This document shows, piece by piece, positions 1,563 to 24,502 of a stretch of DNA of 46,083 nt. Source of the stretch: Amaricoccus solimangrovi (GTDB taxonomy: Bacteria > Pseudomonadota > Alphaproteobacteria > Rhodobacterales > Rhodobacteraceae). Under the pieces are notes generated by a model. That model was given only the letters and a program-made list of their open reading frames with translations. It did no database searches and was not told where the DNA came from. Made by a program: the position numbers and the translations under genes. Location: assembly GCF_006385685.1 (NCBI RefSeq), contig NZ_VFRP01000029.1:1-46083 (forward strand), written 5' to 3'. How positions within the stretch are numbered: the stretch's first letter is position 1; the number at the start of each line of letters is the position of its first letter.

Positions 1563-2114
1563 TCAGGTCCAGCGGGAGGGGCGACGGCGGCGGCCCTTGC
1601 TCAAGAGCCGGAAGGCGGAATCCCTCGCCTCGATCTCCTCCTCTCGGACGATACCGGCGATGACGCGGATGGCCCCGGTGACTTCGGCCAGCTTCTCCTC
1701 CGCGAGGTGTTCCTGTCCGAGGATGTAGCCACCGTGCTGGCGGATGGAGGGGAGGACGGTCTCGGCAATCCAGTCTTGGAAGTCGAGCGCGGCCTCTTTG
1801 TCCGACCGCATGATGAGCCGGTAGAGCCCGGCCTCGGAGACCGCGACCAAGCCACGGTTCGGGAAGGCCGAACCCCCATCCAAAATCAGGTTAGGAATTT
1901 CGGAACGGAGGACGAGCCGCTTGTGCCTGTTGGGGATGCGGCGGAGATGCGGGGTCGTGCCCTTCGCAAGGTCGAGGCCGATGGCGATGCAGATGTCGCG
2001 GACGATGAACCACGGCTTGCCGTCGATCATGATGGCGCGGACGGCGCCGTTGCCGAGGTCAGCCGGGAGCGGGAAGGATGGGGAGGCGCTGGGCGCGGCG
2101 GGGAGGTTGTTCAT
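1563..2114 (-). CDS. BRO-N domain (phage antirepressor-type) protein
   Basis: The N-terminal 110 residues carry the BRO-N pattern found in phage antirepressors and baculovirus BRO proteins: a short hydrophobic strand, then IDGKPWFIVRDICIAIGL, and later the paired motifs GLVAVSEAGLYRLIMRS and FQDWIAETVLPSIRQHGGYI. Known family members bind DNA or repressors and act in lysogeny control. The C-terminal part is a charged helix with an Arg-rich end (KGRRRRPSR). I start it at the ATG at 2114 (MNNLPAAPS), because the longer form only adds a low-complexity leader. A second BRO-N protein lies at 3642-4070. The target of either protein cannot be told from sequence. Confidence 0.85.
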   Translation of the reverse strand: MNNLPAAPSASPSFPLPADLGNGAVRAIMIDGKPWFIVRDICIAIGLDLAKGTTPHLRRIPNRHKRLVLRSEIPNLILDGGSAFPNRGLVAVSEAGLYRLIMRSDKEAALDFQDWIAETVLPSIRQHGGYILGQEHLAEEKLAEVTGAIRVIAGIVREEEIEARDSAFRLLSKGRRRRPSRWT

Positions 2115-2426
2115 GGTGAGATGATGCCTTGATGGCGGACACGGCTTCACGGCCCGCTAGGGGCTCGTTCAGGGCGTGCTCAGGGTGTCGTGAGGGGAGG
2201 CGGAGGGGGCGGACCGGTTGGTTCCGGTCTCGTTCTCGTTGGCTGCGGAAGCAGCGTTCCGGCTGTGCCGGGCCTGTCAACCGTCACGGTGATGGCATCA
2301 TGGGTGCCCGGTTATCCCGGGTCTTGTTCTTGCGCGGCGTCTCACGAGGCGGCGGAGGCGACCTGTCCCCCGGGCATTCCTCGCATTGCTTGGGGGAGGT
2401 CGAAGGTGAGGGGTGATCTCCGTAGG
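2115..2426. other. 312-base spacer in the element, no gene seen
   Basis: No convincing reading frame lies here. It includes one copy of a 17-base direct repeat (2398-2414; the other copy is at 3112-3128). A perfect minus-strand TTGACA at 2280-2275 could be a -35 box for the BRO-N gene, but the sequence 17 bases downstream is a poor -10. It is probably the promoter and leader region of the BRO-N gene. Confidence 0.4.
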
Positions 2427-2786
2427 TCAGCCAGGACGAGGAACGCGGAGGACGCGGACCCTCCGGGGCTCGCTGGCGGCGGTAGCCGCATTCCTGCTTT
2501 GCAGGGAGGGAACCCGAGGGAGCACCTTCGGGGTGGCGGACACATCTTCCTCGGGTGCCTCTAGCAGGTGGAGGGCAGCGATTGCCCGGCTGTGATCAAC
2601 CTCGTCCTTCGGTCCATACCGCTCATGATGAATGCGGGCTCGGGTCTCCTGCTCATGGGTGGCCCTCCATTCGGCCTCGGCCTCCTTGGCTTCCTCCCGG
2701 CTGTCGTAGGTCCCGACATAGAAGGAGGTGTCAGCGATGGAGGCGATGGCCGCCCACCTCCCGGGCCTTGCTTGGTAGACGGACAT
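2427..2786 (-). CDS. Small protein with an AP2-like beta-strand region (119 aa)
   Basis: The start is the ATG at 2786, which has AAGGA five bases upstream. The N-terminal portion, MSVYQARPGRWAAIASIADT followed by FYVGTYDSREEAKEAEAEWR, has the strand-strand-helix look of AP2-like DNA-binding domains seen in phage HNH proteins (GxWxAxI...xxGxYxTxEEA). The rest is helical and charged. The last 30 codons run through a copy of an interspersed hairpin repeat (2481-2506), so the C-terminal tail may be a repeat-derived extension. AP2-like assignment is by pattern only. Confidence 0.55.
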   Translation of the reverse strand: MSVYQARPGRWAAIASIADTSFYVGTYDSREEAKEAEAEWRATHEQETRARIHHERYGPKDEVDHSRAIAALHLLEAPEEDVSATPKVLPRVPSLQSRNAATAASEPRRVRVLRVPRPG

Positions 2787-3641
2787 TCTGGTCCTTATGC
2801 TGTCGGTGCTGATGCTGTCAGGGTGGTGAAGGGCGCCTTCCGCTACCCTCTCGGAGGGAGAGGACACGGGAAGATGTCCTTCAGGTGGGGACAGGTGTCT
2901 GGGGGTGCTCGGTCTCCTCGGTCTCCTCCGAGGAGGTCATCCCCCGATCAGTGAACGGTGAAGGAGCGCCTTCACACCCTCCTCCTCCGGAGGCACTCGT
3001 GAAGGTTCACCTTCAAGGTATCACCCTCGGGTTGGTCCTCCTTGGAGATGATGATCGAGGGTCACACCCTAGCGCCTACCCTAGGGTAATTGATAAGGTG
3101 GAACCGGGGGGGGTCGAAGGTGAGGGGTAATTCCACCGCCAGATCGAATAATCCTTCAACTACAGAGTCTTATATGCACAACTTCATCCTTGCCATCAAG
3201 GGCATGCGAATCAGCCCTCGAAGGGCTCTTGCGAGTATGTCAAGGGGGATTGTGAGCAGGTGGCGAAGTTTCTTGAGGCGCGGAGAGGCTCGCACACGGC
3301 GATCTCGGGGGTGTCGAGGGGTGGAACGGCGGGGAGGGAAGACGGGCCTGTACGGGGCGCGTTGAGGGGTACTTGTGGTGGAGCTGGAGGTGGACACAAG
3401 ATGTGGGGGTGAGAGAGCCGGTGCGTGGGCGGAGGTGGTGCGGAGGTCACCGCCAGTTTTTCCGGCGGTGAACCCGAAGGTGGTGCGGAGGTGCTCCCGG
3501 AAGACGGAGATTCTGAATCACTGTCTGCGGCTTCTCCCTAAATTGAAATCATGGAGAACGCGCAGGTGGTGCGGAGGTGCTGCGGAGGTGGTAGCCGAAT
3601 TCCCGCTTTGCAGGGGTTCGCTGGGTTTGCCCGTAACGCCG
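2787..3641. other. Long repeat-rich noncoding region of the element
   Basis: I see no credible gene in these 855 bases. The region holds several kinds of repeat. Short palindromes cluster at 2915-3095 (CTCCTCCGAGGAG, GTGAAGGTTCACCTTC, and ACCCTAGCGC next to CCTAGGGT). A 17-mer at 3112-3128 is shared with 2398-2414. A perfect 14-mer GGTGGTGCGGAGGT occurs three times (3434, 3479, 3565), and a 7-bp hairpin lies at 3448-3470. A hairpin-bearing 26-mer at 3590-3615 is also found at 2481-2506. This could be an operator cluster, a replication or transfer origin, or a graveyard of small mobile repeats. The sequence does not decide. Confidence 0.5.
3434..3578 (+). repeat. Three perfect copies of a 14-base iterated repeat
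   Basis: GGTGGTGCGGAGGT occurs at 3434-3447, 3479-3492 and 3565-3578, with a shorter partial copy (GCGGAGGTG) at 3582-3590. Spacings are 45 and 86 bases. All three copies are in the same orientation within noncoding DNA, which is the arrangement expected of iterons or protein-binding sites. Confidence 0.6.
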
Positions 3642-4070
3642 CTACGGGTAAACGCGGAGGCCTCCCCCGCAGGGGAATGCGCTTCGCGCCAGCTCCTCGA
3701 TGGTGGCCTCACCGGTCAGGACCTTCTCCTCCCCGAGGACGTAGCCGCCGTCCTTGCCCGCCAGAGGCGGAGACCGCGAAGCGGGGATGGCCGGGAGGAC
3801 CGTCTCGACAATCCACGCGCGGAACGCCTTGGCGGCAGGCTTGCCGCTGTCCAGAACGAGGTCGTAGAGGCCGCTCTCGGAGACCACCGTCATCGCACGG
3901 CCGGGCGCCAGACCAAGGCTGGTCCGATCAGCCATGCGCTTTTTGTCAGCGATTACACGGGCATAGGCGAAGCTCGCCTTCTTGATGCCGAGCGCCTTGC
4001 ACACGTCCACCGCCACGAACCACGGCGACCCGTCGATCTCCACGACGCGGATGTTGTGGCCCTCGAACAC
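3642..4070 (-). CDS. Second BRO-N domain protein
   Basis: The protein has the same order of motifs as the BRO-N protein at 1563-2114: VVEIDGSPWFVAVDVCKALG, then MTVVSESGLYDLVLDSGK and FRAWIVETVLPAI. It is only 142 residues. The start is a GTG at 4070. No ATG, GTG or TTG lies between it and the in-frame stop further upstream, although the 22 codons before the GTG are open and protein-like (they include SGISNILGQGGASVHV). The C-terminal 20 residues look unrelated to the domain. The paired BRO-N genes in one element suggest antirepressor duplication or distinct lysogeny-control roles. Confidence 0.8.
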   Translation of the reverse strand: MFEGHNIRVVEIDGSPWFVAVDVCKALGIKKASFAYARVIADKKRMADRTSLGLAPGRAMTVVSESGLYDLVLDSGKPAAKAFRAWIVETVLPAIPASRSPPLAGKDGGYVLGEEKVLTGEATIEELARSAFPCGGGLRVYP

Positions 4071-4131
4071 GTGGACCGAGGCGCCACCCTGGCCGAGGAT
4101 GTTCGAGATGCCCGAGAGGGTGTTGTTGAGC

Positions 4132-4332
4132 CTACCTCACCCCAAAGTCATCATCAGGATAGACGATCTGGTGCAGGTCGTCGGTTGACAGCCGCTCTCC
4201 TCGGTCATCCCGGATAATCAGTTTCGGAACCCGAAGGACGCGACGCTCTGCCTCCTTGAGTGCTTCAGTAGCTGTTGCGACGGTTAGGCTCTCCCCGCCA
4301 CGCTGTCCGGTCCAACTCAAGATGAACGGCAT
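4132..4332 (-). CDS. Small hypothetical protein (66 aa)
   Basis: The ATG at 4332 has a strong GGGAGG ribosome site, so I prefer it to the in-frame start at 4368. The protein begins MPFILSWTGQRGGESLTVAT. It has a likely beta-alpha-beta make-up: a helix with TEALKEAERRV, then a strand PKLIIRDDRGE and an acidic C terminus. This pattern is common in tiny phage or plasmid proteins of unknown role. A good promoter candidate lies upstream at 4409-4436. No family is recognised. Confidence 0.6.
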   Translation of the reverse strand: MPFILSWTGQRGGESLTVATATEALKEAERRVLRVPKLIIRDDRGERLSTDDLHQIVYPDDDFGVR

Positions 4333-4408
4333 GCTTACCTCCCGGAGCTTATCGCGTCCTGCCGCCACGATGGACCGGAAACGCCACAGATACCACTACA
4401 GACATAGT

Positions 4409-4436
4409 GATATAATTGCAACACTGTGCCTATCAA
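4409..4436 (-). promoter_or_regulatory. Sigma-70-like promoter candidate
   Basis: On the minus strand TTGATA (4436-4431) and TATATC (4414-4409) are separated by 16 bases. The -35 box overlaps the stop codon of the resolvase gene. The -10 lies about 75 bases before the ATG at 4332, so this would give the downstream genes their own start of transcription. Confidence 0.5.
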
Positions 4437-5008
4437 GCCACAGCCTTCAGCTTCGCCACCGTGGCCCTCGCCACCCCAAGCTCCCCGGCAACCGCCTTCA
4501 CACTCAAGCCACTCGCCAGCATCCCCCTAGCGATCTCCTTCCGCTCCTCGCTCAGGGCCTCTGGGCGTCCACCCTTCTTGCCCTCCGAACGAGCCCGGGC
4601 AAGTCCCGCGTGGGTCCGCTCGATCAGAAGGTCCCGCTCCATCGTGGCGACTGCGGCCAGCATCGTCACCATGAGCTTGCCCGCCGTGCTTGTCAGGTCG
4701 AGGTCTCCAAGCTGAAGCACCACGACGCCGCATCCCATCTTCCCGAGGATGTCGAGGGTCCCGAGGATGTCGGAGGTGTTCCTCCCGAGGCGATCAAGCT
4801 TGGTCACAACGAGCCTACGCGGGCCGCTCACGGCCTTCAGCGCCGCCACGGTGTCCCGGAAGGCTGGCCGTTCCATGGCCGCTACGGAGCCGCTGACGGT
4901 CTCTGTGAAGGTCATGTTGGGGACGATGCCCTTGGCCTCCATCTCCCGAAGCTGGTTCTCGGTGGTCTGGTCGGCGGTGGAGACGCGGGCATAGACGGCG
5001 GTGATCAT
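4433..5008 (-). CDS. Serine recombinase, resolvase/invertase family
   Basis: This is a small serine recombinase of 191 residues, the usual length for resolvases and invertases. The N-terminal catalytic domain begins MITAVYARVSTADQ, with the nucleophilic Ser in RVST. It continues through the expected RPAFRD and LVVTKLDRLGRNTSDIL motifs and the long helix MVTMLAAVATMERDLLIERT. A helix-turn-helix ends the protein (GLSVKAVAGELGVARATVAK). Such enzymes resolve cointegrates or dimers, or invert segments, at short palindromic res-type sites. I use the ATG at 5008, which places RVST near the N terminus as in the family. Its substrate site may be among the palindromes in the element, but none is identified. 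Confidence 0.95.
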   Translation of the reverse strand: MITAVYARVSTADQTTENQLREMEAKGIVPNMTFTETVSGSVAAMERPAFRDTVAALKAVSGPRRLVVTKLDRLGRNTSDILGTLDILGKMGCGVVVLQLGDLDLTSTAGKLMVTMLAAVATMERDLLIERTHAGLARARSEGKKGGRPEALSEERKEIARGMLASGLSVKAVAGELGVARATVAKLKAVA

Positions 5009-5391
5009 GGCGAGGAACCTCGGCTCCGGGGTGTCAGTTGTCCAGGCCATCAATCACGTGGCAACAACTATGTCAAGCTGGTGTTGACGGCATACCTGAA
5101 GATGACATATGGAGGTGTCACTAAACGAACGTTTGATGGCATAGGAGGTGAGCAGGACAGTCCGACCATACCCCCCCCATCTCGAACACCCCATGCCCTC
5201 AGGGCGTGACAGGCTTCGGCTCAGGACGGCGCTCTCGGGCCGCCATGGGTTTTCCCCCCAGCGGGCAGGAAGGAGGCCCTCCTACGGGCTCCCTAGGGGC
5301 GCTGCGGGGGGCACGGGGGGTACGCGCGTGCTGCTATATTAATCTCGGGGCCTCAGATTTTTCCTCGGAATATTCGGGCTCCCGGCGTAGA
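5009..5391. other. Noncoding spacer upstream of the resolvase gene
   Basis: These 383 bases contain no gene I can support. Next to the resolvase is a minus-strand promoter candidate at 5048-5076. Further left-to-right the sequence changes from AT-richer (5060-5150) to GC-rich with homopolymer runs, then to an AT-rich patch near 5330-5380 just beyond the stop of the gene at 5392. The latter could serve as a transcription end for the integrase operon, but no clean terminator hairpin is visible. Confidence 0.4.
5048..5076 (-). promoter_or_regulatory. Promoter candidate for the resolvase gene
   Basis: On the minus strand TTGACA (5076-5071) is followed after 17 bases by TTGATG (5053-5048). The -35 box is perfect and the -10 box is weak. 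The position, about 40 bases ahead of the resolvase ATG, is right for its promoter. Confidence 0.4.
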
Positions 5392-5559
5392 TCAGCCTGC
5401 CCTGTCCACAAGCTTTGCCGCATACTTCGCGGCGGCGGTCAGCGCCTTCTCAGTCTTCTTGAACGGCTCCGGCAACCGGATGGTCTTCCCGTCTAGGCGA
5501 ACACTTACCTCCCCGGTCTTCCTGTCGAACAGGATGGTAACCTCTAGCTTGTCAGGCAT
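5392..5559 (-). CDS. Tiny hypothetical protein (55 aa) after the integrase
   Basis: The protein begins MPDKLEVTILFDRKTGEVSV and continues with RLDGKTIRLPEPFKKTEKAL. It looks like two beta strands followed by a basic helix, the make-up of a small DNA-binding or excisionase-like protein, though I cannot name a family. Its ATG (5559-5557) overlaps the stop of the preceding tiny gene by eight bases (ATGCCTGA), and that gene in turn follows the integrase stop by five bases. The three genes form one leftward operon. Confidence 0.6.
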   Translation of the reverse strand: MPDKLEVTILFDRKTGEVSVRLDGKTIRLPEPFKKTEKALTAAAKYAAKLVDRAG

Positions 5560-5716
5560 CGTCACTCCTCGCCCGCTCCCGCTCGGCCACAGCCTGAAGG
5601 AGGGCCTCACGCAGCTCACGCAACATCTTCAGATCGGCTTCCTTCGGCGCAGGGCGCGCGAGTTCCAGCGCAATCGTCTCCTCCACATACCGGAGGGTCG
5701 CCTTGAGGTCACGCAT
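5552..5716 (-). CDS. Tiny helical protein (54 aa) between integrase and next gene
   Basis: Reading the minus strand from the ATG at 5716 to the TGA at 5554-5552 gives 54 residues, starting MRDLKATLRYVEETIALELA. It is almost entirely helical and charged (later LKMLRELREALLQAVAERER), with a possible short coiled coil. Its start lies five bases after the integrase stop, and its end overlaps the next gene. This strict packing is the main evidence that it is real. Function unknown. Confidence 0.55.
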   Translation of the reverse strand: MRDLKATLRYVEETIALELARPAPKEADLKMLRELREALLQAVAERERARSDDA

Positions 5717-5721
5717 GTGGG

Positions 5722-6915
5722 TCACCCTTCCGCCACCTTCGGGGTTCGCTTCGGGACAATGTTCTCAGCCGCTTCCCGCTGCACCTCCACACTCACGTGA
5801 GCATAGTTCCTCAGCAAGACGCTAGGGCTCGACCAGTTCCCGGCCTGCATGACGGCGGCGACGCTGGCGCCCCGCTCCAGCATCCTCGTTGCGGCTGTCC
5901 TTCGGAGGTCGTGAAGGGTCGCGCTCGGGACTTCAGCGAGCTTGAGGGCGGTGTTCCATGCCTTCTTGATCTCGACAAGGTGGCCGGTCTTCCCGGTGCT
6001 CGGGAACAGCCAGCCTTCGGTCCTCCCCTTGGCGACCTTCTCCACCAACTCCCGGGCCTCCCTGCTCAGGGCAACCTCGGCCACCCTGCCCGTCTTGGTC
6101 CTCGTCTTGATCCAGACACCTCGGTCAAGGTCGAAGTCCTCGATACGGGCGCCGAGGACCTCGCTCCGGCGGCTGGTGGTCAGCAGGATGAGCCGGGCGG
6201 CTTGGTGTCCCGGGGTCGGGCTGTTCTCGATCACATACCACAGGCGTTCAACCTCGGCCTCGCTCAGGACCCGCTTGCGGGGCTGCTCGGTGGACCTCTC
6301 GATATTCTCGGCTATGGCGGAGGACAGGAGGTATCCCCGCCGCGTGGCGAGCCTCCAACAGCCTATGAGGGCTTGCCTGAGGCGGTTCGCTTGGTAGATC
6401 TTCCCGGTCCTGCGGAGGTCCCTCACGACGCGCTCCAGGGCTGGGCCGTCGATGTCGAGGAGCGGCATGCTCCCCAGCTTCGGGAGGGCGTAGATCTCCA
6501 GCATCCTGCGGGTGTCCGTCAGGTATGTGGCGGTTCTCCCCCGGTCCTCGATACCGAGGAGATACTCCTCCGCCAGCTTCCCGAAGGTCATGCTCTGGGC
6601 CTTGCGGGTTGCCTCACGGGTCCCCTCGGTGCTCTCTCGCAACTCCTTCAGCTTGATGCCAGCGAGCTTGCGGACCTCCTCCAAGCGGATGTTGGAGGTC
6701 TCCCCGAGCAGGAGCTTGACGTTCTTGCTACGGCTGTCGGTGGTCCTGAGGTAGTAGCTCGCCCGGCCGTTGGTGCGGATGCGGACACCCAGGCCTCGGA
6801 CGGCGGCGTCCATCAGCCATAGCTCCTTGTCCCGGGGCTTGCCGGTGCTCTCCCGGTCAACGATACGCTGGGTCAGGTTGACGCGGTCCTTGGGCGGTTC
6901 ACGAAGCGGGGACAA
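5722..6915 (-). CDS. Tyrosine recombinase, phage/element integrase
   Basis: The protein (397 aa) has the layout of prophage and island integrases: an N-terminal arm-binding region, a SAM-like core-binding domain around residues 105-195 (FGKLAEEYLLGIEDRGRTAT), and a C-terminal catalytic domain. The catalytic residues can be seen in order: Arg in TTSRRSEVLGAR, Lys in TRTKTGR, HxxR in LHDLRRTAATRML, Trp in place of the second His (MQAGNWSS), and the Tyr nucleophile in LLRNYAHV. Such enzymes insert elements at tRNA genes, and a tRNA 3' half lies only about 165 bases from its start. The start is a TTG at 6915, with AAGGA about ten bases upstream. No better start is in frame. Confidence 0.95.
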   Translation of the reverse strand: MSPLREPPKDRVNLTQRIVDRESTGKPRDKELWLMDAAVRGLGVRIRTNGRASYYLRTTDSRSKNVKLLLGETSNIRLEEVRKLAGIKLKELRESTEGTREATRKAQSMTFGKLAEEYLLGIEDRGRTATYLTDTRRMLEIYALPKLGSMPLLDIDGPALERVVRDLRRTGKIYQANRLRQALIGCWRLATRRGYLLSSAIAENIERSTEQPRKRVLSEAEVERLWYVIENSPTPGHQAARLILLTTSRRSEVLGARIEDFDLDRGVWIKTRTKTGRVAEVALSREARELVEKVAKGRTEGWLFPSTGKTGHLVEIKKAWNTALKLAEVPSATLHDLRRTAATRMLERGASVAAVMQAGNWSSPSVLLRNYAHVSVEVQREAAENIVPKRTPKVAEG

Positions 6916-7029
6916 AATGGGGACATCCTTCAGCCAGAAAAACTGTGAGGAATATCAATACACGTGCCGAATCCCCGGGGACAAGAGGATTGTGACGGTC
7001 CCGATAATGGGAAGATTTATTCTTTACTT

Positions 7030-7076
7030 GTCAGCATGTTGCTTCCATATCTGGAACAATTCTAGGTGATGCTGAC
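7030..7076. repeat. Inverted repeats beside the attachment site
   Basis: GTCAGCAT (7030-7037) is repeated in inverse as ATGCTGAC (7069-7076). Between them lies a second small inverted repeat, TTCCATATCTGGAA. They sit between the integrase start and the tRNA fragment, where integrase arm sites and excisionase sites usually lie. Confidence 0.45.
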
Positions 7077-7080
7077 TTCG

Positions 7081-7125
7081 TTGTGGATCAGGAGGTCCCC
7101 CGTTCAAGCCGGGGCGCTGGTACCA
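7081..7125 (+). other. 3' half of a tRNA gene, probable attachment site (attR)
   Basis: The sequence reads as the end of a tRNA: an anticodon-loop-like TTGTGGA, TCAGG, then AGGT before a T arm with stem CCCCG/CGGGG (7098-7102 and 7110-7114) around TTCAAGC, an acceptor strand CGCTGGT, A73 and an encoded CCA (7123-7125). No D arm and no 5' acceptor strand lie upstream, and the bases before the loop do not pair with TCAGG. The fragment therefore starts in the anticodon loop. With GTG as anticodon it would come from tRNA-His. A73 fits tRNA-His of alphaproteobacteria. I read it as the right end of the element, with the intact tRNA gene expected left of the window. Confidence 0.65.
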
Positions 7126-7226
7126 TGACCCCCCTCTTTCGCGGAAAGCCCTTCCGCCCGAAAACCGTTCCAATCGCGCGCGCGTGAGCGCATGATGCGT
7201 CCCGGGAAACGGTGGAGGGCGGCGGC

Positions 7227-8270
7227 GTGACCGGGCGGCTGACCATCGAGGCGAGCGACGTAGCCTCCTTCGGGGTGCCGATCGGCGTGCCGCATCTCTA
7301 TCTGGTGTTCGAGGATCTCGGAACCGGCGCGGAATACGTGCTGCGGGCCGGGCCGCGCGGCGAATGGCAGCTCGTGGGCTCGCCGATGCGGATCGAGATC
7401 AACGTGCCGATCGACCAGTCCGCGGACGACCGCGACGGCGAGACGCCGGCGCGGCGGCACGCGACGGATCTCGACTTCCAGGGGATCAGCGACGACGCCG
7501 CCTGGTCGCTGATGGTGAAATACGCCCGCGCGCTCGACGCGGCGCATTATGACTACAACGTCGCCGAGGAGAATTCGAACGCCTTCGTCGGCGCCCTGCT
7601 GAAGGCGGCCGGCGGCGATCCGGAGGCGATGCTGCCGCGCGGGATCGACGCGGACGAGGCGGTCGGCTTCGACCACTGGCGCGACATCGTGCGCGACGTG
7701 ACGCCCCCGGCCGACGGGATCTTCCGCGGCACCGGCGGCGGGGATGCGATGGCCGGCCTGCAGATGGATGAGGTGTTCCGGCTCTTCGGCGGGAACGACA
7801 CGCTTCATGCCGGGCGCGGCGCCGACAGGGCCGAGGGCGGCGGGGGCGACGACCGGCTGTTCGGACAGGCGGGCGACGACACGCTGAGCGGCGGGAGCGG
7901 CGCCGACCGGCTGATCGGCGGCGCGGGGGCCGACACGCTGCGCGGCGGCGACGGCGCCGACCAGTTCGTCTTCAAGTCGCCCGAGGCCAGCCTCGCGGAG
8001 CGCGACCGGGTCGCCGATTTCCACGTCGGCGAGGACAGGTTCGACATCTCCGCCATCGACGCGAACGTCTACCGGAGCGGGTCGCAGGACTGGCGCTTCG
8101 CCGGGCCCGACGACTGGCACGGCACCGGGCGCGTCTGGTTCGTCGAGGATCCGGACGGCGCGGCGAGCCAGCTGCGCGCCGATACCGGGCGGGCCACGCT
8201 CGTCGTCGCGCTGCTCGATGGCGCGGCGGTCCGGGCGGAGGATTACGCGGCGGACGATCTGATCCTCTGA
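7227..8270 (+). CDS. RTX (hemolysin-type calcium-binding) secreted protein
   Basis: The first 165 residues form an unrecognised domain. It contains VPHLYLVFEDLGTG and a conserved-looking HYDYNVAEENSNAFVGALL, reminiscent of a catalytic or binding segment. The region around residues 180-250 holds several RTX nonapeptides of the GGxGxDxLx kind (GGGGDDRLF, GGSGADRLI, GGAGADTLR, GGDGADQFV), which bind calcium in known proteins. The end, starting DRVADFHVGEDRFDIS, matches the C-terminal signal region of type I secretion substrates. There is no N-terminal signal peptide. Known relatives leave the cell through an ABC/HlyD/TolC exporter, and no exporter genes are next to it. I prefer the GTG at 7227, with GGAGGG seven bases upstream, to the GTG at 7212. 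Confidence 0.85.
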   Translation: MTGRLTIEASDVASFGVPIGVPHLYLVFEDLGTGAEYVLRAGPRGEWQLVGSPMRIEINVPIDQSADDRDGETPARRHATDLDFQGISDDAAWSLMVKYARALDAAHYDYNVAEENSNAFVGALLKAAGGDPEAMLPRGIDADEAVGFDHWRDIVRDVTPPADGIFRGTGGGDAMAGLQMDEVFRLFGGNDTLHAGRGADRAEGGGGDDRLFGQAGDDTLSGGSGADRLIGGAGADTLRGGDGADQFVFKSPEASLAERDRVADFHVGEDRFDISAIDANVYRSGSQDWRFAGPDDWHGTGRVWFVEDPDGAASQLRADTGRATLVVALLDGAAVRAEDYAADDLIL

Positions 8271-8276
8271 CCGGAA

Positions 8277-8294
8277 GCCCGCGGGGGCGCGGGC
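8277..8294. terminator. Strong hairpin after the RTX gene
   Basis: GCCCGCG (8277-8283) and CGCGGGC (8288-8294) pair perfectly around a GGGG loop, starting seven bases after the RTX stop codon. There is no T tract, so termination may need Rho or the hairpin may protect the mRNA end. Confidence 0.5.
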
Positions 8295-8857
8295 CCGGCC
8301 GTTCCTGGCGGAAGATCGTTCAGGCCAGGCCGCGCGTCCGACCCGCGGGCGCGGCTTACATGTGCGGACCGGCCGCGGCCGCCACGCCGGCCGGTGGCGG
8401 CGCGAAGCCACCACCCCCGCGAGTTCCATCCTCCCCGGACGTTTCCGCGCCGGAAACGATCCCGCGTGCCCCCGGCGGCGTATTCGCCGCGTTCCGCCGC
8501 GTTTCGGAACGAGAAATACGTTTACGTAATTCTCTCCCTTACTTTTCATCCTGGAGCATTGGCCAAGATCGGCGCGACATGTTATGATGCGAAGCACGGG
8601 GGATGAGTCCAATTACGGAATCATAGCAAAGATTACATCTCAATCTTTTTCGGAAAGGCGACTTTTGTCGCCCGGATTTCTGTTGTCTTATCATAGTATT
8701 GTGATTATTTATTAGACTAAAGTTTGACGACTCGTAATTATCGTGCTAAATGATTCTCGCCTTCGAACCAAAATTACGGACGCTGAAGGTAATCAGGGTG
8801 GAAACCTCCAGAATGGAATTGCGTCCATCTGGGAAAACTTTCTAGGGAGTGAGCCTA
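8295..8857. promoter_or_regulatory. AT-rich control region ahead of the Asn/Gly repeat genes
   Basis: The stretch holds no gene. From about 8510 to 8850 it is far richer in A and T than anything else in the chromosomal part of the window. It contains a near-palindrome TACGTTTACGTA (8518-8529), a perfect hairpin GGCGAC-TTTT-GTCGCC (8657-8672), and a promoter candidate at 8724-8752. The size and composition suggest a heavily regulated promoter, possibly a target of a nucleoid-associated silencer. Confidence 0.55.
8724..8752 (+). promoter_or_regulatory. Promoter candidate for the Asn/Gly repeat genes
   Basis: TTGACG (8724-8729) and TAAATG (8747-8752) are separated by exactly 17 bases. Transcription from here would give a leader of about 100 bases before the ATG at 8858. 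It lies at the end of the AT-rich region. Confidence 0.5.
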
Positions 8858-9340
8858 ATGACCATCACCAAAGCCGCCATCGCGACTTTCACCGCTGTTG
8901 TGTTCTCCGCGTCCCTCGCCATGGCCGCGAGCGGCAACGGGAATGGCAACGGGAACGGGAACGTTGGCAACCTCAACGGCAACGGAAACGGCAACTTCAA
9001 CCACGGTTCCTACAACGGGAACGACAACGGGAACGGCAACTACGGCAGCGGCAACGGCAACCTGAACGGCAACGTCAACCACGGTTCCTACAACGGCAAT
9101 TCCAACGGCAACTACAACAGGGGCAACCTGAACGGGAATGCCAACGGCAACTTCAACCACGGGGCCTTCAACGGCAACCTGAACGGCAACGGCAACCGCG
9201 GCGACGTCAACGGCAACATCAACGGCAACGGCAACCACGGTCGCAACAACGGCAACCTGAACGGCAACGTCAACTACGGCAGCGGCAACGGCAACGTGAA
9301 CGGCAACGGCAACAGCGGCGGCCGGCACCACCGGCGCTGA
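8858..9340 (+). CDS. Secreted Asn/Gly protein with nine tandem 13-residue repeats
   Basis: The protein is 160 residues. A Sec signal peptide (MTITKAAIATFTAVVFSASL, then AMA before the likely cleavage site) leads into a Gly-Asn run and then nine tandem repeats of 13 residues (residues 37-153) with consensus GxxNGNxNGNxN(H/R/Y). The tail is basic (GGRHHRR). There are no cysteines. I choose the ATG at 8858 because AGGGAG lies about nine bases upstream. The GTG at 8849 would overlap that site. Strict register over nine copies suggests a solenoid or fibre-forming fold, with stacked Asn ladders as in beta-helical proteins. That fold is inference. Two more repeat proteins follow. I recognise no named family. 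Confidence 0.8.
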   Translation: MTITKAAIATFTAVVFSASLAMAASGNGNGNGNGNVGNLNGNGNGNFNHGSYNGNDNGNGNYGSGNGNLNGNVNHGSYNGNSNGNYNRGNLNGNANGNFNHGAFNGNLNGNGNRGDVNGNINGNGNHGRNNGNLNGNVNYGSGNGNVNGNGNSGGRHHRR

Positions 9341-9353
9341 GTCGCGAGACCAG

Positions 9354-9381
9354 TCCACCGCCCCGGATCCGGGGCGGTGGA
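9354..9381. terminator. 28-base perfect palindrome after the first repeat gene
   Basis: Bases 9354-9381 are a perfect palindrome centred on GGATCC, with arms beginning TCCACCGCCCC. It starts 14 bases after the stop of the first repeat gene and ends 29 bases before the next ATG. In RNA it would form a very stable hairpin that could cut or attenuate transcription into the second gene, or set different mRNA amounts for the two proteins. Confidence 0.55.
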
Positions 9382-9409
9382 TGCGAAAACGCAACGGGGG
9401 ACCGAGACA

Positions 9410-9877
9410 ATGAAGACAATCCTGATCGCGACGGCCCTGCTCTCCGGCATGGCGCTCGCCGCGCCCGCCGGCGCCGCGGATTGGGGGCGCACCCGCGCGA
9501 CGATCGAGAGCCGCACCCAGGCCAGAGTCGGCACGGTCGTTGACAAGAACGGCAATGTGGGTGCCGGCAACACCGGACGGAACAACGTGGGATTCAACAA
9601 TTCCGGAAACGGGAACGTGGGAAGCGGAAACTCGGGCAACAAGAACGTCGGCAACAAGAACGGCGGACAAAACAACGTCGGCAGCGTGAACGGCTACGGG
9701 AGCACCGGAAGGAACAACGGAAATCAGAATATCGGAAATCACAACGGCAGTTTCAATTCCGGTGATAATAACGGGAACAAGAATATCGGTTCCTGGAACG
9801 GTAATTACAACGGCGGCAGCCGTAACGGAAATCGGAACATCGGGAGCGGGAACGGGAATTTCAACGGAAACCCGTGA
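9410..9877 (+). CDS. Secreted Asn/Gly protein with pentapeptide-like NxGxx repeats
   Basis: The 155-residue product starts MKTILIATALLSGMALAAPA, a clear signal peptide with likely cleavage after AGAA. A short ordered segment follows (DWGRTRATIESRTQARVGTV). From about residue 46 it is built of N-x-G-x-x units: nine in perfect register (NVGAG, NTGRN, NVGFN, NSGNG and so on), then looser NGNxN/NIGxx variants to the end. The pattern closely recalls the MPTR/pentapeptide-2 repeats of mycobacterial PPE proteins, which are not normally expected in an alphaproteobacterium. It differs in period from the preceding protein, so it is not a simple copy. The ATG at 9410 fits the signal peptide. It is likely exported to the periplasm or surface. 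No enzyme motif is seen. Confidence 0.8.
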   Translation: MKTILIATALLSGMALAAPAGAADWGRTRATIESRTQARVGTVVDKNGNVGAGNTGRNNVGFNNSGNGNVGSGNSGNKNVGNKNGGQNNVGSVNGYGSTGRNNGNQNIGNHNGSFNSGDNNGNKNIGSWNGNYNGGSRNGNRNIGSGNGNFNGNP

Positions 9878-9898
9878 CCGGATTTCGCCTCCCACCTT

Positions 9899-9919
9899 CC
9901 CGCGCCGGCGGGGCGCGGG
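9899..9919. terminator. GC-rich hairpin after the second repeat gene
   Basis: CCCGCGCC (9899-9906) and GGCGCGGG (9912-9919) pair perfectly with a five-base loop, about 20 bases after the stop codon of the second repeat gene. It has no T tract. Confidence 0.45.
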
Positions 9920-10031
9920 CGGCGGCTGATCCGGTTTCGCCCGCCCGCAGATCTTGATCAGGTGCGACGCTTCGCGCCGCGGACCCGGCTGTCCGTCCGG
10001 AGGTCGCCAGAGCTTTAGAGGCTTCAGGCCC

Positions 10032-10862
10032 ATGCGCTTCGTCATAGCATCCCTTGGCGTGCTGGTCGGCTGCTCAGCCGCCATCTCGCCATCGCCTTCG
10101 ACCAGGAACACGTCGGATTCCGCGATCTCCACCAACCTGCGCGGCGGCGCGGCCTATACCGGCGACCCCGGGACCGCGGCGAACACGACGACCGCCACGC
10201 GCGTCGACGGCGCGACGCCGGCGCCGGGCGGTTCCGGCGGTTCGGGCTATTCGTCGGGAGGCGACACGACCGGAACTTCCACGACCTCCGGCGGCTCCGG
10301 CGCTTCCGGGGGATCCACCACGACCGGCGGCGGCTCGAAAACTTCCTCCGGCGGAGGAAGCGGCGGTCAGGGAAACAACAACGGCAACAACAACACCGGT
10401 AGCAACAACGGAAACAACAATACCGGAAACAATAACGGAAACGACAACACCGGAAGCGGCAACGGCAACAACAACAGCACGAGCGGCAACGGCAACGGTT
10501 CGACCGGCGGCTCCACCGCGGGCGGCGGCGGAACCACGACCAGCGGCGGGACTGGCGGCGCCTCGGGCGGCCGGGGCAACAACAACGGCAACAACAACGT
10601 CGGCAACAACAACGGCAACCACAATTCCGGCAACAACAACGGCAACAACAACACCGCCAGCAATCAGGGCAACAACAACAGCTCCAGCGGGAACGGCAAC
10701 GGATCCCGAAGCTCCGGCGGCTCCTCCCGCGGGGGCGGCGGCAACGGGAATGGCAACGGCAACGGCAACACCGGGAACGGCAACGGGAACGGCAACGGCA
10801 ATGGCGGCGGGTTCGGCGGCGGTGGCGGCGGCTTCGGCGGGGGCGGCGGGTTCAGCTTCTGA
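10032..10862 (+). CDS. Asn/Gly/Ser/Thr-rich repeat lipoprotein
   Basis: The 276-residue protein begins MRFVIASLGVLVGCSA. Leu11-Val-Gly-Cys14 is a lipobox, so Cys14 is probably lipidated after signal peptidase II cleavage. A Ser/Thr/Gly linker of about 100 residues follows. Two matching 45-residue blocks come next (residues 116-160 and 184-228), each of five 9-residue units such as NNGNNNTGS and NNGNNNVGN. They are preceded by similar Gly-rich lead-ins, so one block arose by duplication. The end is a run of NG dipeptides and GGGGF/FGGG. The ATG at 10032 has AGAGG about ten bases upstream. Lipid anchoring makes it a natural candidate to tether or nucleate the two soluble repeat proteins upstream, but this is inference. 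Confidence 0.75.
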   Translation: MRFVIASLGVLVGCSAAISPSPSTRNTSDSAISTNLRGGAAYTGDPGTAANTTTATRVDGATPAPGGSGGSGYSSGGDTTGTSTTSGGSGASGGSTTTGGGSKTSSGGGSGGQGNNNGNNNTGSNNGNNNTGNNNGNDNTGSGNGNNNSTSGNGNGSTGGSTAGGGGTTTSGGTGGASGGRGNNNGNNNVGNNNGNHNSGNNNGNNNTASNQGNNNSSSGNGNGSRSSGGSSRGGGGNGNGNGNGNTGNGNGNGNGNGGGFGGGGGGFGGGGGFSF

Positions 10863-15166: not shown

Positions 15167-15367
15167 CGGCGCCTCCCGCTTCCGCGACCCCGTCCGAAAT
15201 TCTCGTAGCCTGACCGCATGCCGACGCCCTCGCTTCTCCGTCCCCCGCTCACCCATCGCGCGAACACCACGCCAGGTTCCGCCGCCGCGCGCGCCGCTTT
15301 CCCGCGCGCCGGGCGGGCCCGCCGGAAAATGATGCGCCGCGGCAAAAAACCTCGCCATTGAAACATC

Positions 15368-15395
15368 TTGACGCGTGGCACGGCGGGTCTATCGT
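15368..15395 (+). promoter_or_regulatory. Promoter candidate for the formate dehydrogenase operon
   Basis: TTGACG (15368-15373) and TATCGT (15390-15395) are 16 bases apart, about 45 bases before the first gene's ATG. AGGAGG (15427-15432) six bases before that ATG is a strong ribosome site. The intergenic region is shared with divergent treZ. Confidence 0.5.
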
Positions 15396-15438
15396 CTGCG
15401 CACCGATCTTCCCATGGATAGGCAACAGGAGGACGACG

Positions 15439-18400
15439 ATGAACGTGGACCTCTCGCGCCGGGGCTTCCTGAAGCTCGCCGGCGCGGGCGTGGCGGCGAC
15501 ATCGGTCGGTGCGATGGGCTTCGGCGAGGCCGAGGCCGCCGAGATCGCACATGTCCGGGCCTTCAAGCTCTGGACCACGACCGAGGCGCGCAACACCTGC
15601 CCCTACTGCTCGGTCGCCTGCGGCGTCATCCTCTATTCGAAGGGCGACGTGAAGGCCGGCGGCGCCGAGATCCTCCACGTGGAGGGCGACGCGGACCATC
15701 CGACCAACCGCGGCACGCTCTGCCCGAAGGGCGCGGCGCTCAAGGACTTCATCCATGCGCCGACCCGGCTCACCGAGCCCCGCTACCGCAAGGCGGGCGC
15801 CGACCGGTTCGAGCCGATCACCTGGGACGCCGCGCTCGACAAGATCGCGCGGGCGCTCAAGGACGATCGTGACGCGAACCTGATCACGACCAACGCGGAA
15901 GGCGTCACGGTCAACCGGTGGACGAGCACGGGCTTCCTCGCCGCCTCGGCCACCACCAACGAAACCGCCTGGGCGACGACGAAGGTCGTCAAGGCCCTCG
16001 GCGTCGCGGGATTCGACAACCAGGCGCGCGTCTGACACGGACCGACGGTGGCCAGTCTGGCCCCAAGCTTCGGTCGCGGTGCGATGACCAACTCCTGGAC
16101 GGACATCAAGAATACCGACCTCGTCATCGTGATGGGCGGCAACGCGGCGGAGGCGCATCCCTGCGGCTTCAAATGGGTGACGGAGGCGAAGGCGCGTCGC
16201 GGCGCCCGGCTGATCGTCGTCGACCCGCGCTTCACCCGCACGGCCTCGGTCGCGGATTACTACGCCCCGATCCGGCCCGGCTCGGACATCGCCTGGCTGA
16301 TGGGGATGATCCGCTGGATGATCGAGAACGACAAGGTCCAGTGGGACTACGTCAGGAACTACACGAACGCGAGCCTGCTCGTGAACGAGGGCTTCGGCTG
16401 GTCCGACGGGCTCTTCACCGGCTACGAGCCGGAGAAGCGCAACTACGACATGTCGACCTGGGAATACCAGATCGGCGATGACGGCTTCGCGCTCACCGAC
16501 CCCACGCTCCGGGATCCGCGCTGCGTCTGGAACCTCTTGAAGGCGCATGTCGATCCCTACACGCCCGAGATGGTGGAGCGGATCTGCGGCACGCCGAAGG
16601 ACCGGTTCCTGCGTATCGCGGAGATGATCGGGGAGTGCTCGGCGCCGGACAAGGTCATGACCTCGATGTACGCGCTCGGCTGGACCCAGCATTCCAAGGG
16701 CGCGCAGAACATCCGCGGCATGGCGATGCTCCAGCTCATCCTCGGCAACATAGGGATGCGCGGCGGCGGCATGAACGCGCTGCGCGGGCATTCGAACATC
16801 CAGGGCCTGACCGACATGGGGCTCATGTCGAACCTGCTCCCCGGCTATCTCAACATGCCGACGGAGAAGGACACCGATTTCGACACCTACCTGTCGAAGC
16901 GACAATACAAGCCGCTCCGGCCCGACCAGACGAGCTACTGGCAGAACTATCCGAAGTTCATGGTCTCCTACCTCAAGGCGATGTGGGGCGATCATGCGAC
17001 GAAGGAGAACGGCTGGTGCTTCGACTACCTGCCGAAGCTCGACGTCGCGAACTACGACATCCTCCGGATGTTCGACATGATGTACAAGGGGGAGGTCAAT
17101 CTCTACTTCTGCCAAGGGTTCAATCCGCTCCTCGCCTTCCCGAACCGCGCCAAGCTGACGACGGCGCTCTCGAAGCTGAAACTCCTCGTCACGATGGACC
17201 CGCTCGAGACCGAGACCTCGCGCTTCTGGGAGAACCACGGCGACTTCAACGACGTGGACCCGGCGGCGATCGAGACCGAGGTGATCCAGCTTCCCACCAC
17301 CTGCTTCGCGGAGGAGGAGGGCTCGCTCACCAACTCGGGGCGCTGGCTGCAATGGCACTGGCCGGGCGGCTCGCCTCCGGGCGAGGCGAAGCACGACACC
17401 TGGATCATGGCGCAGATCTTCCTGCGCGTGCGCGAACTCTACCGCCAGGAAGGCGGGACCGTGCCCGAGCCGATCCTGAATCTCAACTGGGACTACGCCG
17501 ATCCGAACGAGCCGACGGCCGAGGAACTGGCGAAGGAGATCAACGGCCGGGCGCTCGGCCAGGTGACCGATCTGGTCGACACCTCCAAGGTGCTCGCCGA
17601 GCCCGGAAAGCTGCTCCAGAACTTCACCCAGCTGCGCGACGACGGCTCGACCTCCTCGGGCTGCTGGATCTATTCCGGCTGCTGGAACGAGCAGGGCAAC
17701 AACATGGCGCGGCGGGATACCTCCGATCCCGACGGGACCGGGGCCTATCTCAACTGGTCCTGGTCCTGGCCGGTCAACCGGCGCATCCTCTACAACCGCG
17801 CCTCGGCCGATCTCGACGGCAACCCCTGGGATCCGGAGCGCAAGCTCGTCTGGTGGAACGGCGAGAAATGGATCGGCTACGACGTGCCCGACATCGCGGT
17901 GACCGCGAAGCCAGGCACCGTGATGCCCTTCATCATGAATCCGGAGGGCGTGTCGCGGCTCTTCTCGCGCGGGCTGATGCGCGACGGGCCGTTCCCGATC
18001 CACATGGAGCCGTTCGAATCGCCGGTCGCGAACTTCCTCAACCCCGATCTGCGCGGCAACCCCGCCGCCCGGATCTTCGAGGACGACGCGGCGCAGCTGG
18101 CGACCTCCGCCGACTTCCCGCATGTCGGCACCTCCTACCGGCTGACCGAGCATTTCCACTACTGGACGAAGCACAACCCGGTGAATTCGGTGCTTCAGCC
18201 GGAATTCTTCGTGGAGATCTCGGAGGAACTCGCCAAGGAGAAGGGGATCGGCAATGCCGACTGGGTCCGGGTCTGGTCGAACCGCGGCTCTATCAAGGCG
18301 AAGGCCTATGTCACGAAGCGCCTCAAGCCGCTGATGTGCGACGGCAAGGCGCTGCACGTCGTCGGCATCCCGCTGCACTGGGGCTTCACCGGCGCCGCGC

Positions 18401-18528
18401 GCAAGGGGTTCGGGCCGAATTCGCTCACGCCCTTCGTCGGCGACGCGAATGTGGAGACGCCCGAATCCAAGGCCTTCCTCGTCAATATCGAGAAGACCAC
18501 CCCGCCAACGGAAGGAGCCACGTCATGA
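15439..18528 (+). CDS. fdnG: Formate dehydrogenase-N/O type alpha subunit, selenoprotein
   Basis: This is the catalytic, molybdenum or tungsten bis-MGD subunit that oxidises formate to CO2 (1029 aa including selenocysteine). A twin-arginine signal (SRRGFLK, residues 6-12) sends it out of the cytoplasm. An FeS cluster motif follows: Cys54, Cys57, Cys61 and Cys95. Codon 199 is TGA (16033-16035) in the context NQARV[13 protein letters not shown], identical in layout to the Sec site of E. coli FdnG/FdoG. The frame continues without a break to 18528, so the TGA is read as selenocysteine and not as a stop. A SECIS hairpin lies just after it. Later conserved blocks include [25 protein letters not shown] and the C-terminal molybdopterin-dinucleotide domain. 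Its ATG-A overlap with the beta gene marks an operon. Standard gene callers will split it in two. Confidence 0.97.
16033..16081 (+). promoter_or_regulatory. Bacterial SECIS element
   Basis: Immediately after the TGA the mRNA can form the SelB-binding hairpin. The lower stem is ACCGA (16041-16045) with TCGGT (16070-16074), and CAC/GTG can close it at the base. The apical stem is GG-bulged T-GGCC paired with GGCCCC (16047-16064), and the loop AGTCT carries the GU. The bulged T is base 17 counted from the T of the TGA, exactly as in E. coli fdhF. The sequence is coding at the same time. Confidence 0.9.
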
Positions 18529-22475: not shown

Positions 22476-24502
22476 TCATCGGCACGGCGGGCCATATCGA
22501 CCACGGCAAGACCGCGCTCGTGAAGGCGCTCACGGGCGTGGACGCCGACCGGCTCGCCGAGGAGAAGGCGCGCGGCATCACCATCGACCTCGGCTTCGCC
22601 TACCGCCACCTGCCCGGCGCGCCGGAACACGCGATCTCCGGCTTCGTCGACGTGCCCGGCCACGAGCGGTTCGTGCACACGATGCTCGCCGGCGCGGGCG
22701 GGATCGACTTCGCGCTGATCGTCGTCGCGGCGGACGACGGGGTGATGCCGCAGACGCGCGAGCATGTGGCGATCCTCGACCTGCTCGGGCTGAGCCTGGG
22801 CGCGGTGGCGCTGACGAAATGCGACCTCGCGGGCGAAGCGCGCCGGGCGGAGGTCGGCGCGGAGGTCGCGGCGCTCCTCGCGGAAACCGGGCTCGCCGGC
22901 GCGCCGGTCTTCCCGGTCTCGGCCGTCACCGGAGAGGGGATCGACGCGCTCCGCGGCCACCTCGCCGGGCAGGAGCGCGCGGCCCGTCCCCGCCCCGGGC
23001 AGGGCCGCGCCCGGCTGCTCGTGGACCGCTGCTTCACGCTCAGGGGCGCGGGGACCGTCGTCACCGGAACCGTGGTTTCCGGCGCCTTCGCCACCGGCGA
23101 GCGCGTCGCGGTCAGCCCCTCGGGCCTCACCGCCCGCATCCGCTCGATCCACGCGCAGAACACGCCCGCCGAGCGCGGCGAGGCCGGGCAGCGCTGCGCG
23201 CTGAACCTCGCGGGCGAAGGCGTCGCCAGGGAGGCGATCGCGCGCGGCGACGTGGTGCTCGATCCGGCCCTCCTCGCGCCGAGCGACCGGATCGACGCGA
23301 CGCTGCGCGTCCTCGCCTCCGAGCCGAGGCCGGTCGGCACCTGGTTCCCCGCCCGGCTCCACACCGGCGCGGCGGAGGTCGGCGCGCGCGTCGTGCCGCT
23401 CGGCGATCCGATCGGCCCCGGCGGCGCGGGCCTCGCGCAACTGGTGCTCGACCGCCCGGTCGCGGGCTTCGTCGGTGACCGCTACATCCTGCGCGACGTC
23501 TCCGCGCGCCGCACGCTCGGCGGCGGCGTCTTTCTCGACCTCCGTGCTCCCGCCCGGAAGCGGCGGACCGAGGCGCGGCGCGCGCTTCTCGCCGCGGCCG
23601 CGCCGCGGGATCCCGGCGCCGCGCTCGCCGGGCTGCTCGCCACCGGCGAACTGGTCGCCCCCGACGCCTTCGCCCGCGACCGCGCGCTCAGCGACGCGGA
23701 ACTCGCCGCGGCCGTCGCGGCGCCCGGGGCCGAGTGGTTCGGCGGTCTGCTCGCCGCTCCGGGAGGCGTCGCCCGGCTCCGCGCGGCCATCGGGGCGGAA
23801 CTCGCCGCCTGGCACGAGGCCAATCCCGAACTCCACGGCATGCCGCGCGAGAGGCTGCGCCTCGCGCTGACGCCCCGCCCGCCGAAGGAGCCCTTCCTCG
23901 ATCACCTGCGCGCCGAGGCCGCCGCCGGCCGGCTGGTGCTCGACGGCGCCTTCCTCCGCCTGCCCGGCCATGTCGCCCGGCTGACCGAGGCGGACGAGGA
24001 GATCTACGCCCGGGTCGCCGGAGGCCTCGGCGGCGCGGCGCGGTTCCGCCCGCCCCGGGTTCGCGACTTCGCGGGCGAACTCGGGCTCGACGAGGCCGAG
24101 ATCCGGCGGGTGATGAAGCTCTGCGCCCGCGCGGGCCGGGTCGACGAGATCGCGAAGGACCATTTCTTCCTGCGCGCCACCACCGCCGAGATGGCGGATT
24201 TCGTCCGCTCGCTCTCCGCCGCCGCGCCGGAGGGCTGGTTCACCGCCGCCGCCTTCCGCGACCGGATGGAGAACGGCCGCAAGGTCGCGATCCAGATCCT
24301 CGACTTCTTCGACCGCCAGGGCCTGACCTTGCGGCGCGGGGATCTCAGACGTATCAATCCGCATCGCGCCGATCTCTACGCGCGCGCGGGCTCCGATGGA
24401 GGAGAATCGTCCCCGGTGGGGCGTCCGGACTTCAAATCCGGGTGGGGCGGCGAGACCGTCCCGGGTGGGTTCGACTCCCATTCTCCTTCGCCGGACCCGT
24501 AG
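22472..24502 (+). CDS. selB: Selenocysteine-specific elongation factor SelB
   Basis: SelB is the EF-Tu-like GTPase that brings Sec-tRNA(Sec) to UGA codons marked by a SECIS. G motifs are clear: AGHIDHGKT near the N terminus, DVPGHERF and TKCD. The EF-Tu-like domains II and III follow, and then C-terminal winged-helix domains that bind the SECIS ([39 protein letters not shown]). The ATG at 22472 overlaps the selA stop. The frame runs 676 codons, but the last 34 or so are encoded by the selC tRNA gene and the spacer after it. The family fold ends near [10 protein letters not shown], so this tail is an overlap product rather than a domain. The stop TAG lies in an inverted repeat. Confidence 0.97.
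24398..24490 (+). tRNA. selC: Selenocysteine tRNA, anticodon TCA
   Basis: The 93 bases fold as a bacterial tRNA(Sec). The 8-bp acceptor is GGAGGAGA (24398-24405) with TCTCCTTC (24482-24489), one G-T pair. The D arm has CCCC/GGGG around GGT. The anticodon stem CCGGA/TCCGG encloses CTTCAAA with TCA at 24432-24434. A long extra arm, GGGGCGG/CCGTCCC, is typical of this tRNA. The T arm GTGGG/CCCAT holds TTCGACT. That gives the 8+5 helix used by SelB. The discriminator is G (24490). The next bases are CCG, so the terminal CCA is not fully encoded. The whole gene lies on the same strand inside the 3' end of the selB frame, so its mature form must be cut from a transcript that also carries selB. Confidence 0.95.

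Follow-up and report, generated by a model that had tools for sequence, protein, structure and literature searches.

Three adjacent genes for exported asparagine/glycine repeat proteins in Amaricoccus solimangrovi share a two-module grammar and may encode parts of one extracellular fibre or matrix

What could three adjacent genes do whose products consist for the larger part of asparagine and glycine? The question is raised by a locus of Amaricoccus solimangrovi within the window analyzed here (the whole stretch of DNA studied, 46,083 nucleotides). The open reading frames of the window include three consecutive ones on the forward strand: A (8858-9340, 160 aa), B (9410-9877, 155 aa) and C (10032-10862, 276 aa). 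All three begin with ATG and are preceded, as judged by eye, by a purine-rich stretch resembling a ribosome-binding site (AGGGAG at 8844-8849 for A, GGGGG for B, and AGAGG about 10 bases ahead of C), and their GC3 values are 0.92, 0.78 and 0.86, respectively. Inspection of the N-termini by eye, without a signal-peptide program, pointed to Sec-type signals on A and B, and to a short signal ending in the lipobox LVGC (residues 11-14) on C, a predicted lipoprotein that would be lipid-anchored. The mature chains, of 137, 132 and 263 residues, are very hydrophilic (GRAVY -1.1 to -1.5) and contain few acidic residues. Asn and Gly account for 39 and 30% of A, 29 and 25% of B, and 22 and 34% of C, and thus together for 54-69%. 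The initial annotation had described three neighbouring exported Asn/Gly proteins, two with Sec signals and the third with a lipoprotein signal, and the position of the reading frames as well as their N-termini agree with that description.

The three proteins share a grammar of two modules, NGNx with four residues and NxGxx with five. A is a run of ten contiguous 13-residue units NGNxNGNxNxGxx (i.e. 4+4+5) with a His/Arg C-terminal tail. B contains nine 5-residue modules, a break of eight residues and then mainly alternating 4+5, and C has 9-residue units (4+5), which can be seen in two blocks (one near residues 114-157, the other near 181-232), together with a glycine-rich tail. The chains were tiled with NGNx (S allowed for N) and NxGxx, and the coverage was compared with that of 300 composition shuffles. 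In A, 130 of the 136 residues after residue 24 fell within modules (shuffles: mean 67, maximum 90), and in B 99 of 131 (mean 47, maximum 68); for these two proteins the grammar is statistically established. The coverage of C (98 of 252) lay within the shuffle range (mean 103, maximum 133) because C is rich in Gly, Asn, Ser and Thr throughout, and the case for C therefore rests on the visible 9-mers and on tandem repeats at the DNA level. Eight of the 13 unit positions of A are invariant in all ten units; the codons vary at all three invariant Gly and at one invariant Asn, the other four Asn being always encoded by AAC. Of the periods first proposed, 13 (A) and 9 (C) hold, while 5 holds for the first half of B, which then changes to 9. 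Similarly, the units differ, as stated earlier, in their period but not in their building blocks, which the tilings show to be common to all three. The possibility that the genes are copies of one another was set aside, as their module orders and flanks differ.

Does the combination occur elsewhere? Among 248 genomes of the same family (own included), A had matches at E <= 1e-8 only in the window genome (G000) and in G150, a metagenome-assembled genome of another genus (Paracoccaceae bacterium isolate MO_005.B9), which gave the best foreign match (E 5.5e-19). Four matches of A in G150 cover three genes on one contig within 4 kb, and this locus contains four NG genes, P0005 to P0008, in 4.1 kb, among them genes whose products resemble A, B and C. 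More specifically, on contig L031 a LuxR-type regulator gene (6760-7563) ends 52 bases before the B-like P0005 (7616-8689), which has an extra C-terminal part and a VPLPA-type tail. Then come P0006 (8852-9394), with 13- and then 9-residue units, the C-like P0007 (9557-10171), a response-regulator-like ORF (10123-10635) and a C39 peptidase (G150:C28, 10628-11155) whose best NCBIfam family is FapD. The A-like P0008 (11265-11696) lies on the strand opposite to this run from P0005 to the peptidase, and after it comes a Crp-type regulator.

A and P0008 are 61% identical in their alignment. The alignment of B with P0005 needs no gap over 153 residues, and the two follow one plan, namely nine 5-residue modules, a break of 8-9 residues and then 4/5 modules. 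In the repeat part, the zero offset gives 55 identities in 107 positions, versus 39 for the next best of 21 offsets. Outside N and G, 5 of 34 aligned positions are identical, and it is therefore their layout and neighbourhood that support a relation between B and P0005. The block GNNNGNNN...GNGNGS is common to C and P0007; in the searches, C matched G150 weakly (E 0.0018) and another genome, G204, better (E 7.8e-5). Judged by eye, P0007 is without a lipobox, and the predicted lipid anchoring of C is not conserved. P0006 and P0008 carry a CxxC soon after the signal. The module coverage of P0005, P0006, P0008 and a further relative introduced below, P0009, exceeded that of every shuffle; that of P0007 (44) was inside its own shuffle range (maximum 48). 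Thus, as far as can be read from the sequences, the three types recur together in a second genus, in one case and not in a survey. The initial annotation had regarded the three as parts of one structure and had named co-occurrence as the check; the check was run and was positive in the one case found, which adds one independent instance, within 4.1 kb and in another genus, to that proposal.

Beyond G150 the distribution was sparse. Six of 385 genomes of the class matched P0008 at E <= 0.01 (own included). One of them, G325, belongs to another family and encodes, on a short contig and 241 bases from its end, P0009, an A-like, exported-looking 4+4+5 protein; the other four had no N/G-rich ORF on screening. 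A response-regulator-like gene at 0.7 kb and a LuxR-type gene at 1.4 kb from P0009 lie on the opposite strand. A single comparison of this LuxR-type gene with the response-regulator-like ORF in the G150 cluster gave a match of 31% over 129 residues (E 1e-11); the other regulator pair compared between G150 and G325 gave no match (E 0.26). LuxR-type genes are a very common class, and the 34 window ORFs scanned with Pfam included no LuxR-type match. P0005 had matches in six of the 385 genomes at E <= 0.001. Its matches include G311, G604, G329 and G476, and the matched loci of the first two showed no N/G-rich ORF on screening. Genome G378, from a third family, encodes an exported-looking NxG-repeat protein on one of its contigs. 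On another (G378:C4; L101 8507-15479) it has a row of four long NxG-repeat ORFs (424-601 aa), looser in pattern and with no Pfam family above the cut-off. Weak matches of A were found in 26 of the 248 family genomes at E <= 10; those in G192, G163 and G177 were short NGNG stretches in other proteins and were rejected, those in G030 and G120 were screened only, and the rest were screened via their short loci. Within the genus, 10 genomes, not all of them complete, were searched with B and none matched; a tblastn search of plasmids with A gave no match. Scans with A returned 99 fitting stretches in genome contigs and seven in viral contigs, none of which was confirmed; a scan of genome contigs with P0005 returned one locus, on the contig of G150 itself. 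The best reading of these data is that the system is patchily inherited.

The genomic context is in line with such a history. Trehalose genes of the treY/treZ type neighbour the trio, with treY convergent with C, and the 3' neighbours of treY differ in the three congeners with a treY match (G006, G009 and G001). Considering this difference, the distribution and the adjacent integrase and phage-type genes, the trio looks to have been gained or lost in a variable region. The region 1563-6915 contains an integrase, a resolvase and two Bro-N antirepressor-like genes and represents an integrated element beside the trio. A phage origin of the trio was set aside: the phage-type genes lie outside it and PHROGs returned nothing for A to C. 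Directly upstream of A, on the same strand, an RTX calcium-binding nonapeptide-repeat protein is encoded (7212-8270; PF00353, E 1.5e-14). It is not in the set seen in G150, and no RTX match was obtained for A, B or C. The protein also has a Peptidase_M10_C match (35.3 bits), with no catalytic domain among its Pfam matches. Further downstream, a molybdopterin oxidoreductase frame (15358-18528, forward strand) has one in-frame TGA at residue 226 and is otherwise open to 18528; with fdhE and a tRNA-Sec (24398-24492) nearby, it is likely a selenocysteine formate dehydrogenase.

Candidate expression signals surround A. Upstream of it an AT-rich stretch on the forward strand (8559-8694) contains promoter-like sites at 8559-8588 and 8665-8694, which are consensus matches only; the GC content is 0.41 in 8500-8749 versus 0.70-0.76 in the five blocks of 7250-8499. 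Between 8270 and 10950 there are four promoter-like sites, of which two overlap and one is on the reverse strand inside B, where 0.3 were expected from shuffles. Just after the stop codon of A lies a 13-bp hairpin without a U-tract (9353-9382, forward strand). For the 72 nt from 9338 to 9409 the folding energy is -38.4 kcal/mol (z -3.8), and none of 200 shuffles was as stable; the gap between B and C (9875-10010) had no extra stability versus shuffles (z -0.01). The hairpin is possibly a 3'-end stabilizer or an element of segmental expression. The pufBA mRNA of Rhodobacter carries a 3'-terminal hairpin that sets subunit ratios, as described in the available text of PMC10253847, and by analogy the hairpin after A might give more A than B and C.

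Structure prediction contributed little. AlphaFold2 single-sequence models had low confidence (pLDDT 49 for A and 53 for B), with short predicted strands every ~26 residues in A and every 18 in the second half of B. This spacing would fit a coil of two units, and it is a hint at most because AlphaFold2 has been reported, in the text available of PMC11795689, to predict unrealistic beta-solenoids for repeats. A parity signal for two units per coil was reached by 301 of 20000 permutations for the 5-mers of B, 1366 for A and 4060 for the 9-mers of B; among the relatives the numbers were 2133 for the 5-mers of P0005 and 17168 for P0008. The signal is suggestive for B only. A fold search with the model of A returned a single match, FapC (E 8.4, probability 0.01), which is meaningless, and the single PDB sequence matches of A (E 0.2) and B (E 1.6) were taken as chance; C had none. 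A and C had no match in Pfam, NCBIfam or PHROGs. The Knotted Solenoid fold was set aside, since the accessible part of PMC13123833 mentions no asparagine repeat. Within the open-access literature, with subscription journals mostly outside its scope, such Asn/Gly repeat proteins or their arrangement were nowhere described.

How, then, does the system relate to known fibres? With curli it has in common short exported N- and G-rich repeats and, beside the genes of the relatives, LuxR-type regulators, the broad class of CsgD. The curlin repeat (PF07012) had no match in A, B and C (E limit 1) or in P0005-P0008 (E limit 0.1), and CsgG (PF03783) was found in none of three genomes (G000, G150 and G325) against 4 of 14 controls; by these two sequence tests the system is not curli. 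A 2012 survey, as far as its available text goes, found many Alphaproteobacteria in which only curlin subunits were identifiable and suggested other amyloid pathways (PMC3521004), which leaves room for a fibre but does not show one.

The Fap system (FapA-F) likewise has several secreted repeat subunits per locus, and in G150 only the likeness extends to the C39 peptidase and the CxxC motifs. FapD acts in amyloid maturation. The peptidase of G150 matches FapD with E 4e-17 and 62 bits, far below the 330-bit equivalog cut-off. Of 295 family genomes two contain a match to it, namely G150 itself and G659, and the surroundings of the copy fetched from G659 showed no N/G-rich ORF; a search of the window genome with this single query, which could miss divergent copies, gave no match. 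CxxC is conserved in FapC according to the available text of PMC6173800. Among the NCBIfam matches of A, B, C and P0005-P0008 there was no Fap fibre family, in a library that may lack a FapB/C model, and the system cannot be filed as Fap. The tail of P0005 resembles a VPLPA-CTERM signal just below threshold (24.4 bits, cut-off 25.35), and the G150 genome has an exosortase; A, B and C had no VPLPA-CTERM match and the window genome no exosortase match. Each locus hence has one member with an anchor-type signal, the lipobox of C here and the near-threshold tail of P0005 in G150, and the earlier proposal of material at the surface or in a matrix, with one of the partners anchored, would stand in this form.

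Our best reading is a system distinct from curli and Fap that works in a similar way. Whether A, B and C indeed assemble as subunits into a single extracellular fibre or matrix belonging to the cell envelope we consider evenly poised. They would be exported by Sec, to judge from the signals read by eye, would cross the outer membrane and would then stack through their Asn/Gly modules. Each NGNx or NxGxx module may form one Asn-led turn, and therefore chains of different module order could still stack, much as the imperfect repeats of the curli and Fap fibres do. The bulk subunit would be A, as it is short and the strong hairpin after it could favour its mRNA segment; B might be a second or nucleating subunit; and C, through its lipid anchor, would hold the material on the outer membrane, a role that in the lineage of G150 could fall to the VPLPA-CTERM-like tail of the B-like protein. 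Such a material might be used in biofilms. What speaks for amyloid-like handling is circumstantial and was found in the relatives, not in the window: several repeat subunits per locus, the LuxR-type regulators, the C39 peptidase and the CxxC motifs.

An unlikely alternative is that the proteins are alphaproteobacterial counterparts of the Pentapeptide_2/MPTR proteins, that is, monomeric beta-helical surface adhesins or spacers rather than fibre subunits. The NxGxx unit invites the comparison: B just passes PF01469 (26.6 versus 26.4 bits), P0005 matches one Mycobacterium plasmid PPE protein (E 4e-4), and the MPTR repeats vary around NxGxGNxG, with XNXGX as the Pfam unit (PMC7028111 and PMC4858275, in the text available). 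However, A and C have no PF01469 match, and none of the three matches the PPE domain in Pfam; instead of this domain they carry Sec-type signals or a lipobox. Moreover, the additional 4-residue module NGNx breaks the pentapeptide frame, the proteins are several small, separate subunits of one cluster and not one long chain, and their host belongs to the Alphaproteobacteria, whereas 95% of the Pfam PP2 sequences were mycobacterial in a 2016 paper (PMC4858275, available text). Over 337 genomes of the class, PF01469 matched in 10 at E <= 0.001 (own included) and in five over the cut-off, and a composition screen of the returned loci gave no further protein of the 4/5 type.

It is rather improbable that the proteins are disordered, prion-like low-complexity secreted products that form a hydrogel or a phase-separated layer without a defined fold. 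Their hydrophilic, N/G-dominated composition with few acidic residues and the low-confidence models would suit this. Yet the strict spacing of N and G over the ten units of A, and the layout of B and P0005 in register, imply positional constraint. We consider it very improbable that the ORFs are functionless products of slippage-prone repeat expansion: such an origin would agree with the tandem DNA repeats, the patchy distribution and the lack of a B match in the ten congeners searched, but not with invariant residues encoded by varying Gly codons, the GC3 pattern, the export signals and the recurrence of the same three types in a second genus. Least credible is the ice- or mineral-binding scaffold of the initial annotation, with which regular repeats on exported proteins and the adjoining trehalose genes would agree, as no sequence or structure match pointed to such families, treY has other 3' neighbours in the congeners, and G150 bears the cluster without a treY match at E 1e-100.

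The fibre or matrix reading can be extended, tentatively and with more doubt than confidence, to a new fibre system apart from curli and Fap. This would use a two-letter Asn/Gly module code (NGNx = 4, NxGxx = 5), in which subunits of different module order stack together, one member bears the anchor, and lipid and exosortase anchors are swappable between lineages. If the proteins assemble, they would constitute a polymer of extracellular repeat proteins written in an unusually simple code, in which the 4/5 modules would predict the coil length, and would allow one to ask what the minimal sequence of a functional amyloid or beta-solenoid fibre is. In that case they would also provide a candidate matrix fibre for those Alphaproteobacteria that have no CsgG match.
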